This document shows, in pieces, positions 11,966 through 33,331 of a stretch of DNA of 33,331 bases (its first letter is position 1; every line of letters starts with the position of its first letter). The position numbers were made by a program, and so were the translations under genes. Where the stretch lies: NCBI GenBank assembly GCA_016214465.1, contig JACROI010000002.1, positions 1 to 33,331 on the forward strand. Direction: 5' to 3'. Below the pieces are notes generated by a model. The model was not told where the DNA came from, did no database searches, and saw only the letters and a program-made list of their open reading frames with translations. The stretch comes from Candidatus Magasanikiibacteriota bacterium. Its GTDB lineage: Bacteria > Patescibacteriota > Patescibacteriia > Magasanikbacterales > UBA10003.

Positions 11966-13192
11966 TTAAAAAGAACCGGACTTTATTTTTTCTTTTTGAG
12001 AGACAGGCGCGAGAGAACTAAAATGGTGAACGGATGAAGCCCAAAATTCTTTGGATTGAATCTGATTCGCTGGAGCTACATCTTTTTCCATTAAAAATAA
12101 ATATTCGTGGTGTTTTCCGTCGCTATTTATCCATTCGTTTGTCCACCGCATATTTGCCATCACATTTTTTTTGTAATTAATCTCCACGGCTTTTATCAAT
12201 TTCCCGGATTCATTGATTATTTCATTAAGCTCTTGTTGGGTGGCTCGACCACCGGAACTATAAGACAGTAGAATATAGCGAGCATTGGTTGTTTGGATCA
12301 ATTTTCTTAATGCTTCCATGGCAATAAATGAACCATCATCATTTTTCCTAAATTCTTCAAATACCGAAGCGGCTACGCCGTCTCTGCTATCTACACGCCG
12401 ATTGGCTTTACCAAAAATCTCCGGCTTATCGTGGTTTATTATTGTTGTCCAAATATGATAATAAGAAGCGTATCGCACTCTACTCGGTGGCATTTTTTCG
12501 TTGTTTGACCCGTAAGGCGGGTCAAAATACGCTAAATCAAAATCATTATTCAGCACAGTATCAAAAATATCATTGTGAATTACTTTATGCTCGCCGCTCG
12601 TTTCAAATCGTTTCGGCAATTTCAGAAATAAATCATGATATGACCTTGGCGACCATTTTGATAAGTATGCCGCATAATGTCCGAGCGTGCTGTCAACAGA
12701 ATCCAGCGCGTAAATAAGACTGGCGAGGATTACGCATTTATCCGTCCAATCAAGATTGAGTTTTTCAATTTCATCTCGTATCGCATCTAATTTACGAGTA
12801 TTTTTTGCTTGAAAAGGCCTTTTGATCTCAGCTATTTCAGCTCCATAGTGCTCGGTATACCAGCCGTGGCACCCATTTAAAGAGTTAAGGTGATCAATTA
12901 TTTTTTGATAAAATGAATCTGATTTTTTAGAAAGCAAAAAACAATGCCCAAAAATTTCCGACCAAACTGAAATATCGCTTGAAGTCGTATCATATCCCAA
13001 TTGAGCGAATGTCTGTGAAACGCGTGTAGTGCCGCTAAATCCGTCAAGCACATTTTTTATACCATCAAGCTCACTCAAAATTTGAACGATATAAGGCAGA
13101 ATTTTTAATTTAGATCCCGCGTACTTTATGCCCTGAGTTTTGGGAACAGTAAATGTTTTATTTCCAAAAATATCAAATTGCCGGTTTCTCAT
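11966..13192 (-). CDS. DNA adenine methyltransferase (D12-like, type II R-M)
   Basis: KYAGSKLKILPYIVQIL, LDGFSGTTRVSQTF (SAM-binding), DLAYFDPPYGS (DPPY motif). Confidence 0.88.
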   Translation of the reverse strand: MRNRQFDIFGNKTFTVPKTQGIKYAGSKLKILPYIVQILSELDGIKNVLDGFSGTTRVSQTFAQLGYDTTSSDISVWSEIFGHCFLLSKKSDSFYQKIIDHLNSLNGCHGWYTEHYGAEIAEIKRPFQAKNTRKLDAIRDEIEKLNLDWTDKCVILASLIYALDSVDSTLGHYAAYLSKWSPRSYHDLFLKLPKRFETSGEHKVIHNDIFDTVLNNDFDLAYFDPPYGSNNEKMPPSRVRYASYYHIWTTIINHDKPEIFGKANRRVDSRDGVAASVFEEFRKNDDGSFIAMEALRKLIQTTNARYILLSYSSGGRATQQELNEIINESGKLIKAVEINYKKNVMANMRWTNEWINSDGKHHEYLFLMEKDVAPANQIQSKEFWASSVHHFSSLAPVSQKEKIKSGSF

Positions 13193-14052
13193 AATTGTTT
13201 TAATTGATCTATATCCTTTTGTAAAATTTCATTTGCTAATTTATGTCCTTTTTCAGAGCTGTTTAGGGCCAAGCTGAATAATTTCACCAATGTATGGTTG
13301 TGCGAGTAATCTATCCAGCCATTTGTAAGAGAATCAAAATAATCAACCGCATTTTTTGTATTTGTCCACAAACCGCGCTGCAACGCGTTCGCGGATGCGC
13401 CTCCATATCGCACCTCGCAAATATAATTATTTTTAGAATCAACAAACATAAAAATAGGGTGAGTCCGTCCTTTTCCAGGAACTATTTTGCCTGTAGTTGA
13501 ATCAAATTTCTTCTTTGTATCCACATACACAATTTTTTTCGTATTATTCATTGCTTTTTTATGATTAAAAATCATTATATTGCACCGTTGGCTAATTTCA
13601 TTGTAAATCAACGGCATAACATTTATTGTTCCAAAATCAGAAAATTCTTCAGCCTTAAAAATAGATGCTATCTGTTTTGGATTTTTAATTTGCAAACCAT
13701 GTTTCTCAAGATAAGGAAACATTCTTTGTCTACTATCTGTTGAAAGTTGAAGCGGGCAATCTCCATATGCTTTCAAACTGACAGGAAATTTTGCCTTGTT
13801 TATCTAATTGATTATCACAATGTCTTCTTCATGTTTTTTTGCTCTAAATAGGTCTTTTCCAACATGAATACTTTTGAAGTCATACATAAATTGATTAATA
13901 AACTCGGTCATTCCAATTTCAGCGAGATCGCCGTGCGTTTTATTGCCAATTAGACGCATGGTAAAAATATTTGAAAGCGTATTTACAATCAAATGGTGAT
14001 TTTTACTAGCCAATAATTTAAACCTATGCTTAAATTCTTCATAATTATTCAT
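13189..14052 (-). pseudogene. Putative type II restriction endonuclease interrupted by one in-frame TAG
   Basis: MNNYEEF...RAKKHEEDIVIIN-TAG-INKAKFPVSLKAYGDCPLQLSTDSRQRMF... reads in a single frame across TAG (13804..13806). Overlaps MTase start by ATGA. Confidence 0.7.
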
Positions 14053-26420: not shown

Positions 26421-26449
26421 TCGACACGATTATTTATATTATATATAAT
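26421..26449 (+). promoter_or_regulatory. Sigma70-like promoter for riboswitch transcript
   Basis: TCGACA-N17-TATAAT, ~24 nt before the aptamer. Confidence 0.65.
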
Positions 26450-26472
26450 TGTTTTAGTTCTTTATAAAATTT

Positions 26473-26570
26473 ATTATCAAGAAGAGACGAGGGATTTGGC
26501 CCGCTGACTCTCTACCAACCTAACCATAACGGTCAAGGTGGTAATTCCAACCCACAATGGGAAAGATGTG
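26473..26570 (+). promoter_or_regulatory. SAM-I (S-box) riboswitch aptamer
   Basis: TTATCAAGAAGAGACGAGGGATTTGGCCCGCTGACTCTCTACCAACC...GGTCAAGGTGGTAATTCC...GGGAAAGATG follows S-box consensus (GAGGGA..GGCCC..UGA..CAACC..AAGGUG.UAA.UCC..GAAAGAU); usual G-C pair in GCAACC/GGUGC appears as C-G (CCAACC/GGTGG). Confidence 0.88.
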
Positions 26571-26596
26571 TCCTTATTTTTTAAGGGAATTTTGGT

Positions 26597-26624
26597 ATCT
26601 TATCCTGTTGGGTAAGATTTTTTT
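26597..26624 (+). terminator. Riboswitch expression-platform terminator
   Basis: ATCTTATCC-TGTT-GGGTAAGAT followed by TTTTTTT. Confidence 0.8.
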
Positions 26625-26722
26625 GTTTTAATTTTAAATTACAATAGAAAAATCTTACTCACAACGGTGTGGGTATGGATAGGGTAAGTCAGATAATTGC
26701 AACCAACCATAAGGAGAAAATC

Positions 26723-27532
26723 ATGAAGAATGTCCATGTGATCAATGACTGTCAAGATGAAAACGCCCGTTTGCGCCAAATGGCTCGGTATGGAGCGTAT
26801 TTCCCAGGCACAAACATCATCTTCGCGGGTGTCAGCTCGGATCTCGAAGCGGCCTTTATGCTTGTTGACACTATTGACGCGCTCGACGGTCACACTGGAG
26901 TGATCACGGTCAACGTGGCCCCGCGTAATGGAGAGGCAAAGAAATATGCCAACGGTACACCGTTTGGCAAAGTCCAGGTTGAGGACATCACTATCTTCGC
27001 CTCCATCGATGGCGCCACACTGCGTCTGCTTAATAAGGTGCGGTCTAGTTTGCAATTGTGTGTCTACGACATTCCGGAAGTGGTACATTATCTCACTCCC
27101 GACAAGAATATTCAAAAGCACATCACATTAACCCAATTTCGCAGTTTTGAGTTTCTGCCGCGTCTGGCCAAAGCGGTGGTTCTCCAAGGCGTGACTCTGT
27201 CTGGGCACCACATGTCACTGGCAGACTACTGTGGCGACGATGCTCTTGGCGCGATTGCATGTGTGGATTGCTTCGGTAATTTGAAGACCACACTTCTACC
27301 AGAGGAAGTTGGTTTTGAACCGGGCAAATCTATGGAACTTAAAGTTAACGGATCACTCGTCAATGTCAAGGGGTATCTTCGTCTAAAAGATATCCCTGAC
27401 GGCGAGCTAGGTCTCACTATAGGTTCGTCCGGCCTTGGTTTTCAGCGCTTCCTTGAGCTTGTGTGTCAGGGCGGCGATGCGGGTAGACGATTGAGTGCGA
27501 GTGTGGGTACTTTAATCCACCTGGCCAAGTAA
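26723..27532 (+). CDS. Divergent SAM hydroxide adenosyltransferase-like (DUF62/SAM chlorinase-fluorinase superfamily) protein
   Basis: AAGGAG 8 nt before ATG. AAFMLVDTI...GVITVNVAPRNGE...ITIFASIDGATLRLL parallels the family VDPGVG / PDNG blocks; CVDCFGNLKTTL parallels DRFGNLxTN; C-terminal GSSGLGFQRFLELVCQGGDA. Confidence 0.6.
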   Translation: MKNVHVINDCQDENARLRQMARYGAYFPGTNIIFAGVSSDLEAAFMLVDTIDALDGHTGVITVNVAPRNGEAKKYANGTPFGKVQVEDITIFASIDGATLRLLNKVRSSLQLCVYDIPEVVHYLTPDKNIQKHITLTQFRSFEFLPRLAKAVVLQGVTLSGHHMSLADYCGDDALGAIACVDCFGNLKTTLLPEEVGFEPGKSMELKVNGSLVNVKGYLRLKDIPDGELGLTIGSSGLGFQRFLELVCQGGDAGRRLSASVGTLIHLAK

Positions 27533-27570: not shown

Positions 27571-27600
27571 CACCGTCGGTTGCAATATCGACGGTGTTTT
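27571..27600 (+). terminator. Intrinsic terminator
   Basis: CACCGTCG-GTTGCAATAT-CGACGGTGTTTT. Confidence 0.85.
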
Positions 27601-27650: not shown

Positions 27651-29162
27651 ATGATAACTAACAAACAATCTAAAAAATTATTTTTTAATTTATCAGAAGC
27701 AATTGGGCAAAAAGAATTTGATAATGTTAAAAAATTTGCACGGTATGTTAAACATACTTGTTTAAAGAAAAAAATAAAATTGGCTGACGCTAATATTTTA
27801 TTTGGTTACGGTGGGGGTAAAGACTCTACTTGGTCATTGGCTTTTACTCGATTAGCTCAGCTGGTTTTTCGTCAAGAATTTGGAGAAACATTCAATCTTC
27901 ATATTTGTAGTATGGTGCATTTAGGCACTCCACGCGCCACTTTGCAAAATATGCAAAAAGTTTTTACTCGCCTGCAAGTGTTTGATGATGTTAGCATTCC
28001 ATTTCCTCAAATATATTGTTATGGGCAAATAATAAATTTTACTTCCGATTACAAAGTCCCTGAACCGCAAAAAAGTTGGTTGCGAGAGGATATACTATTG
28101 GCTGGTCAACGTTCTTTTGGCAATGGACGAGCCACTTTTTGCCAGACCTGTAATTTACATATGGTCAATGCCTGTATTTATAAATTGAATCAGGGTATGC
28201 ACTTTATTATTACCGGTGATTCCACCTCAGAATTAAAATCCTACCACGCTTGGGTACAAAATATTTTAGAACAAAACAATTTATTACAACTAGAAAAAAA
28301 TGGTGATTGCAAAAATAATATCGTGTGTCTACAACAAATACACGACAAATTTTATTCGGATTTAATGCCCGCTGCCAATTATTATACCTCCGGTCGGTAT
28401 CATCACGCGCCTGTTTTGGTATATCTAAAATTTTTCTTTATTCCGATTTTTGATTTTACCAAATACAGTTTAAAAGAGCACTGGCCGTTTTTTAAAAATT
28501 TTTTGCGTTTTGATTTTAATGATGAAATTTTAAATTTTACTGAAACCGATTGTCACTATCCGCTATTGATGTGCCATCTGCGCGGAATTTTGGCCGAATG
28601 CGAAGAGCGCGGGTATGTCTCCGGTGTGAAGGAGTATTTAAGTGTGGTGAAATATTTTTTTAATAAGAAAGAATTTCCTAAGAAATTGATAGAGATGAAT
28701 TTAAATAAATTTTCATCAGAAGCAAAAATCAACATTGCTCGTCGTCGCGCGGAGAGTGTGTTTGAGGGAATTGGTATAAGCAAAATACAAACTGTTTGTT
28801 TGGTATATAGTCCGATAGCGGAAAAGTGTAAAAATTTACACAAATATCTCGTCGAACAAGCGCCGGAATTTTTAAAGCACGAGATTAAAATAAAAAAATA
28901 TTTAGCCGGCGATGGGAGAATAAAAGACAAAATTAAAAAATTTTTATTTACAAAAACTGGATTAAATCAGAATCTTTTGCGCCATCTTTATTTGTCGCCG
29001 CTTTTTTATCCGATATATACTCATACAAATGAACGAAGAAATAATGAAGATAATGATAAAAATATTTTAAATTCAGTAATGAAACATGACCCCCATCAAA
29101 AAGAAGTGTGTTTTTTTGATAAAAATGGAGAGAAAATTAAAGAGGTTATCTTTGGACGCTAA
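27651..29162 (+). CDS. PP-loop ATP-pyrophosphatase-superfamily protein, substrate unknown
   Basis: ILFGYGGGKDSTWSLAFTRLA (PP-loop), TFCQTCNLHMVNAC (CxxC), IITGDSTSE. Confidence 0.7.
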   Translation: MITNKQSKKLFFNLSEAIGQKEFDNVKKFARYVKHTCLKKKIKLADANILFGYGGGKDSTWSLAFTRLAQLVFRQEFGETFNLHICSMVHLGTPRATLQNMQKVFTRLQVFDDVSIPFPQIYCYGQIINFTSDYKVPEPQKSWLREDILLAGQRSFGNGRATFCQTCNLHMVNACIYKLNQGMHFIITGDSTSELKSYHAWVQNILEQNNLLQLEKNGDCKNNIVCLQQIHDKFYSDLMPAANYYTSGRYHHAPVLVYLKFFFIPIFDFTKYSLKEHWPFFKNFLRFDFNDEILNFTETDCHYPLLMCHLRGILAECEERGYVSGVKEYLSVVKYFFNKKEFPKKLIEMNLNKFSSEAKINIARRRAESVFEGIGISKIQTVCLVYSPIAEKCKNLHKYLVEQAPEFLKHEIKIKKYLAGDGRIKDKIKKFLFTKTGLNQNLLRHLYLSPLFYPIYTHTNERRNNEDNDKNILNSVMKHDPHQKEVCFFDKNGEKIKEVIFGR

Positions 29163-32589: not shown

Positions 32590-33331
32590 GATGAAGAAGA
32601 GCACAAGGGCGTATGGTGGATGCCTTGATATCAAAAGGCGATGAAGGACGTAGCAGCCTGCGAAAAGCTTCGGGGAGGTGGCAAGCAACCTTTGATCCGG
32701 AGATTTCCAAATGGGGCAACCCTTCGCGATGTTGAATCGCGAAATTTCAACGCAAGTTGAAAGGCATACTCGGCGAAGTGAAACATCTCAGTAGCCGAAG
32801 GAAAATAAATCAATTGAGATTCCCCAAGTAGTGGCGAGCGAACGGGGAACAGTCTAAACCTCTTATCTTTTTAACGTTTAGTAGGAATTGGTTTTAATCA
32901 GTTTTGAAAGATGTTAAAAGGGCGCAGGCCCGATAAGATAAAAGGTGTTGCGTGGCGATTACATTATCTCTCTGCGGAGATTGGTAAAGAAAATATCTTC
33001 CCTAGTAGAATTCCGTGGAATACGGGAACCAAAGAAGGTGATAGTCCTGTACGCGAAAGGGGGTATAGCTTTACGGTGATCGTTCACAAGTATCACCAGA
33101 CACGCGAAATCTGGTGAGAATCCGGGCCGACTAACGGTCCAAGACTAAAGACTTTTGATGATCGATAGTGGACAAGTACCACGAGGGAAAGGTGAAAAGC
33201 AGGCCGGTGAGGCCGATGAAATAGTATCTGAAACCATACGCTTACAAGGAGTCAGAGTCCTAATGCCCGCAAGGGCGTTGGATAATGGCGTTCCTATTGA
33301 AGAATGAGCCAACGAGTTTATTGGGTGCGGC
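32590..33331 (+). rRNA. 23S ribosomal RNA, 5' portion (truncated by window end)
   Basis: AAGGGCGTATGGTGGATGCCTTGATATCAAAAGGCGATGAAGGACG...TGGGGCAACCC...GTAGTGGCGAGCGAACGGGG is conserved 5' 23S sequence; 5' end approximate. Confidence 0.95.

Follow-up and report, generated by a model that had tools for sequence, protein, structure and literature searches.

With a probability of roughly 55%, we read the gene at positions 26723..27532 of the window (the whole stretch of 33,331 nucleotides analysed here) as one induced by low SAM, whose product is a SAM_HAT protein other than a canonical hydrolase and serves SAM/methionine supply or the salvage of 5'-substituted adenosines. This reading draws on the architecture of the leader, the fold of the protein, the loss of the hydrolase triad and the recurrence of the switch–gene pairing in other genomes, all of which were computed. 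The features concerned are as follows.

26421..26449, + strand: sigma-70-type promoter, TCGACA-17-TATAAT, matching 11/12 consensus positions
26471..26572, + strand: SAM-I (S-box) aptamer, with C-G replacing G-C at the base of P3 (RF00162, 61.8 bits)
26559..26567, + strand: GGGAAAGAT, end of P4 and 3' strand of P1, also the 5' strand of the antiterminator, pairing with 26597-26605
26597..26605, + strand: ATCTTATCC, 5' arm of the terminator and 3' strand of the antiterminator
26597..26624, + strand: intrinsic terminator hairpin and T run (-10.0 kcal/mol, z -4.67)
26606..26664, + strand: second inverted repeat, formed by the terminator 3' arm and a further copy of the 5'-arm motif located downstream (-21.7 kcal/mol, z -7.63)
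26711..26716, + strand: ribosome-binding site AAGGAG, read from the sequence
26723..27532, + strand: SAM_HAT-superfamily gene of a triad-less Patescibacteria subfamily, 269 aa, from ATG to stop
27571..27596, + strand: terminator downstream of the gene

The original prediction had placed a promoter, an S-box aptamer, a terminator and a gene with its ribosome-binding site here, and its coordinates and motifs were right. Promoter-like hexamers were also seen by eye at the matching place in the leaders of four other genomes (G455, G456, G460 and G461), and, since a terminator follows the gene, the transcription unit appears to be monocistronic. The proposed covariance-model search returned a clear SAM-I match, covering RF00162 over its full length (model positions 1-108) with E 3.2e-12 and a score well above the gathering score of 44.4, although P1 of the aptamer is short, with only about four pairs; the aptamer would be expected to bind SAM. 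The C-G swap pointed out earlier (CCAACC/GGTGG) is real and preserves the base pair at the base of P3. Because two metK leaders (L025 and L027) carry the same swap, as do about ten further SAM-I leaders in the order of the window, it is, as judged from these comparisons, a lineage variant that does not indicate an altered ligand.

It had also been proposed that the 3' strand of P1 can pair with the 5' arm of the terminator, and the computed folds agree. For transcripts truncated right after the T run, the state with P1 and terminator and the state with the antiterminator are mutually exclusive and lie 0.1-1.9 kcal/mol apart in three leaders (-40.7 vs -40.9 kcal/mol in the window, -46.0 vs -46.1 in G455 and -46.3 vs -44.4 in G456), so that the expression platform is coupled to P1 and ligand binding could decide between the two states. 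The terminator hairpin (26597-26618), whose stability was equalled by none of 200 shuffles, is conserved among the homologous leaders. Across the 11 leaders of the order that have this type of platform, the terminator and antiterminator pairings are both kept in about 89% of cells (88.5% for the antiterminator) and outscore every slid register; covariation in the terminator is thin, with two-sided change in three cells at one pair, and no compensatory changes were found in the antiterminator among these 11 leaders. A transcriptional OFF riboswitch of the SAM-I class is well supported by these sequences, and OFF is the direction in which it would be expected to work in vivo. When SAM is bound, P1 would hold GGGAAAGAT, the terminator would form and the gene would be silent, whereas when SAM is scarce the same strand would pair with the terminator 5' arm, RNA polymerase would read through and the gene product would be made. 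The strong additional hairpin between the terminator and the start codon, to which a related element corresponds in other leaders, could instead suggest an ON switch or an effect of the second inverted repeat on translation, but this is very improbable given that terminator and antiterminator exclude each other in the classical OFF sense and are conserved. As an observation apart from the OFF reading, a second copy of the 5'-arm motif (CTTACCC and a small hairpin) lies 25-40 nt past the T run in the window and in three other leaders (L196, L206 and L208), and could pair with the terminator 3' arm in the read-through RNA.

The resemblance of the encoded protein to DUF62 proteins was likewise borne out. 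Single-sequence phmmer against the PDB gave chance matches only and a profile was required; a nine-member profile of the family found MJ1651, annotated as an (R)-SAM hydrolase, with E 6e-8. The AlphaFold model of the 269-aa protein (pLDDT 88.9) was compared with known structures by Foldseek, and the 34 best PDB matches (E<=0.001) are all DUF62 proteins, chlorinases or fluorinases, with E as low as 8.6e-14 to DUF62, SalL and FlA structures. Since profile search and predicted structure agree, membership in the SAM_HAT/DUF62/fluorinase superfamily, with its two-domain fold, can be regarded as settled at the level of models. The C-terminal domain SAM_HAT_C (PF20257) is matched by all 51 diverse family members at E<=0.1 (best 9e-12) and scores 24.9 bits in the window protein, slightly below the Pfam threshold of 25.5; SAM_HAT_N (PF01887) is matched neither by the window protein nor by any of the 51. 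A scan of one genome per species over 85,462 species retrieved 80 loci of the family, and wherever a record title gives a group, it is a lineage of the candidate phylum (Patescibacteria); the family is strongly conserved and so far found only in Patescibacteria. A viral origin was rejected, as two short peptide patterns found no relatives in viral contigs. Conserved operon partners are also absent, save for a tandem paralogue in four loci and lineage-specific neighbours, and were set aside as a guide to function. The tandem paralogue (L058:4902-5723 and neighbours in L070, L077 and L079) is a third triad-altered SAM_HAT-like protein (NTDPR, QFRSRD) encoded directly after the family member, possibly forming a two-subunit complex, and five further loci (L007-L011) encode another triad-less SAM_HAT-like group of Patescibacteria (NTAPR, QFRSRD).

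The altered catalytic motifs of the original prediction, in which VDPGVG becomes VNVAPRNG and PDNG becomes SIDG, were both confirmed. When the window protein is aligned with canonical members from the same phylum by MAFFT and by hhalign (96.9% probability, E 1.5e-10), the hydrolase triad Asp-Arg-His reads Ala-Lys-Arg, with the catalytic Asp at Ala66, the Arg at approximately Lys73 and the His at Arg140. Twenty-two columns are invariant in the 51 members, including D9, N64, A66, R68, Q138, R140, D182 and N186, so that neither the Asp nor the His is present in any of them, and the triad is also absent from the riboswitch-linked subgroup. Ligand-side positions are kept in the window protein (D9, D182-x-F-G-N186 and S235), and N64, R68 and R140 are family-invariant gains. 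Halogenases cleave SAM by another route, and a triad-less SAM_HAT protein could do so too. In the DUF62 hydrolases, the Asp-Arg-His triad is described as strictly conserved and specific, being absent from halogenases (PMC10491745), and by this standard the window protein is a member of the superfamily that falls outside the hydrolase family. The loss of the triad makes it probable, as far as the alignments tell, that the protein is not a canonical SAM hydrolase, and the strong conservation of the family suggests a working protein with a different job, as the original prediction of a possibly different activity had anticipated. The same prediction had found an OFF switch counter-intuitive for a consumer of SAM; the kinship with DUF62 stands, and the paradox is weakened, because a protein whose whole family lacks the triad need not consume SAM.

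The paradox might nevertheless be taken at face value: the protein would hydrolyse SAM, or clear (R,S)-SAM, through other residues, and the OFF switch would simply halt this at high SAM. The shared fold, the C-terminal domain found throughout the family, the weak matches of 23 members to the NCBIfam (R)-SAM hydrolase model and the documented hydrolysis of (R,S)-SAM by DUF62 enzymes (PMC12120602) are in keeping with such an activity, but the conserved triad is missing from 51/51 members and from the riboswitch-linked subgroup, SAM_HAT_N is unmatched in every member, and an OFF switch would stop clearance just when SAM and its epimer peak; we therefore judge it improbable.

SAM-I switches are common in Patescibacteria: in a phylum sample of 380 genomes, 84 have matches, and a metK-coding sequence lies downstream of 71 of the 85 switches (that of the window excluded), while a SAM_HAT-like gene lies downstream of none of the 85. 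The recurrence of the pairing became visible in a denser scan of the window's order, and was missed by the phylum sample. Among 86 genomes of the order, seven carry the SAM_HAT-like gene and 21 carry SAM-I, and four of the seven gene carriers have a SAM-I switch 124-151 nt ahead of the gene and in the same orientation. The order is probably that of Ca. Magasanikbacteria, since the G464 protein is identical to the one at locus L060, which is recorded under this name. These are the window genome (family f1), G455 (f2), and G460 and G461 (both f155), so that three genomes, two further families and a second protein subgroup are added to the window, with two leader types overall. By our own rough estimate, chance would place the two together in about 1 in 10,000 genomes; the pairing is far beyond coincidence, and an accidental neighbour was rejected as the main account since the pairing recurs in three more genomes. 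SAM-I as a general trait of the protein family was also rejected, being absent elsewhere in the phylum: none was found with model R1 in the 80 named family loci, and no SAM-class RNA was found at the 17 of these loci checked with Rfam. At a separate locus (L233, in G511) a SAM-I-like match, scoring 28.5 bits with model R1, is followed by a 206-codon ORF and then by a family member broken by an in-frame TAG; this may be a decayed fifth case. No publication linking SAM-I to a SAM_HAT-like gene was found in the part of the literature covered by our search.

The leaders of the window, G455 and G456 are homologous through the terminator, but the genes behind those of the window and G455 belong to different SAM_HAT-like subgroups: the G455, G460 and G461 proteins form a clade of their own (support 100/99), and the window protein is placed, with weak support, beside sequences from Kerfeldbacteria and Peregrinibacteria. 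In G456, which shares its genus with G455, the leader is retained with no detected gene. Homologous leaders also precede metF in G440 (PF02219, 1.6e-81) and, in G447, a nucleotidyltransferase/MetE-domain fusion carrying a MetE C-terminal match, which is found in G489 too, behind a divergent terminator. All four pairing genes are richer in GC than their surroundings (0.50 vs 0.40, 0.58 vs 0.42, 0.56 vs 0.45 and 0.55 vs 0.47). The mixed subgroups, varied targets, orphan leader and high gene GC are together read as a SAM-controlled leader behind which the gene has been replaced repeatedly. The same observations could be taken further, with the leader as a mobile or promiscuous SAM-controlled cassette, found before a range of different genes (metF and the MetE-like fusion among them) and orphaned in one of two congeneric genomes, and the SAM_HAT-like gene as a passenger with no functional tie to SAM. 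That is doubtful, as the gene family is rare (7/86 genomes of the order) and yet two of its subgroups, and two leader types, have arrived at the same pairing.

Some related observations on the leaders can be added. Ten loci (L192, L193, L194, L196-L199, L205, L206 and L208) have homologous SAM-I leaders before unrelated genes, the targets in the order being metF, the nucleotidyltransferase/MetE fusion, SAM_HAT-like genes, small ORFs and unknown genes, with one orphan (L199, in G456), where a repeat-like inverted sequence occupies the place of the G455 gene. Three of the ten (L205, L206 and L208) encode short proteins of about 75-130 aa sharing, by eye, a YYxxLSxxxRxxFxxLSQxxRR-like stretch, a possible new small-protein family, and in three other loci (L195, L200 and L207) the SAM-I leader is of the ordinary GCAACC/GGTGC type and is followed by an ORF of about 85-110 aa.

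Homologous leaders before unrelated genes make regulation alone a weak guide to function. We still consider the supply or salvage side of SAM and methionine metabolism the most likely place for the product, because the gene would be induced by low SAM and because metK, metF and MetE-like genes are under SAM-I in relatives. A more specific proposal is that the NxAPR/QFR family represents a new enzyme acting on the adenosyl group, built on the SAM_HAT fold and using an anionic partner, which some lineages have placed under the same SAM-I OFF control as metK. The site that activates water in hydrolases here has two invariant arginines, which would suit an anionic partner, and methionine, for example, might be joined to a 5'-substituted adenosine so that SAM is made or salvaged; at this level of detail the proposal is rather unlikely. 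The four pairing genomes all carry metK as well, on a contig separate from the pair, with no SAM-I detected next to metK in any of them. A metK match is present in 17 of 50 family-carrier genomes and absent from 33, against 73 of 192 in the phylum sample; with these proportions, and with metK in all four switch-linked genomes, the family is not supported as a replacement for MetK. The 33 carriers lacking a metK match, and the switch-free relatives, mean that the family has no general tie to SAM synthesis and that, in at least some genomes, its activity must be independent of SAM made by the cell itself. The metK gene of the window genome has an arginine-decarboxylase-like ORF upstream and an agmatinase-like ORF downstream, both named by eye. 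Separately, in four loci (L043, L235, L237 and L240) metK adjoins polyamine-type genes, with no SAM-I, the adjacent ORFs resembling by eye arginine decarboxylase, agmatinase or an ornithine decarboxylase-like enzyme.

Elsewhere in the window, a 503-aa protein (27651-29162) has a PP-loop-like motif, FGYGGGKDSTW, and no Pfam or NCBIfam match; a D12-class adenine DNA methyltransferase (PF02086) adjoins a 195-aa protein with no Pfam match (11966-13776), probably as a restriction-modification pair; and the start of a 23S rRNA (32593-33331) has insertions relative to the Rfam model, of about 68 nt at one site.

Why a cell would hydrolyse costly SAM is an old puzzle of the DUF62 proteins, and a triad-less branch under a switch induced by low SAM offers a testable clue that some of the superfamily may serve SAM supply or salvage. 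One leader type common to unrelated genes is, in addition, a tractable case of riboswitch target turnover. The SAM-I class, the OFF layout, the DUF62 kinship and the altered catalytic motifs of the original prediction are supported, and each can be set against a known system. Compared with the SAM-I riboswitch (RF00162), the window leader is full-length, scores above the gathering threshold and has a terminator/antiterminator OFF platform, but differs in the order-wide C-G swap at the P3 base and in having as its target a SAM_HAT-like gene, not one recognised as belonging to methionine or SAM metabolism. The SalL chlorinase and FlA fluorinase, compared over the overall fold, share that fold with the window protein and also lack the hydrolase triad, whereas the window protein has no demonstrated halide-site motif in common with them and no halogenation context was seen. 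DUF62 proteins (PF01887 and PF20257; PH0463, MJ1651 and Thermotoga 2zbu) match the window protein in their two-domain fold, with Foldseek E of 1e-10 to 1e-13, and their ligand-side Asp and D-x-FGN are retained; in contrast, identity to these structures is 11-18%, there is no SAM_HAT_N match, and the family has Ala-Lys-Arg in place of Asp-Arg-His together with invariant NxAPR and QFR motifs. The riboswitch class and the fold are therefore known ones, and what is new is the target gene and its triad-less subfamily.
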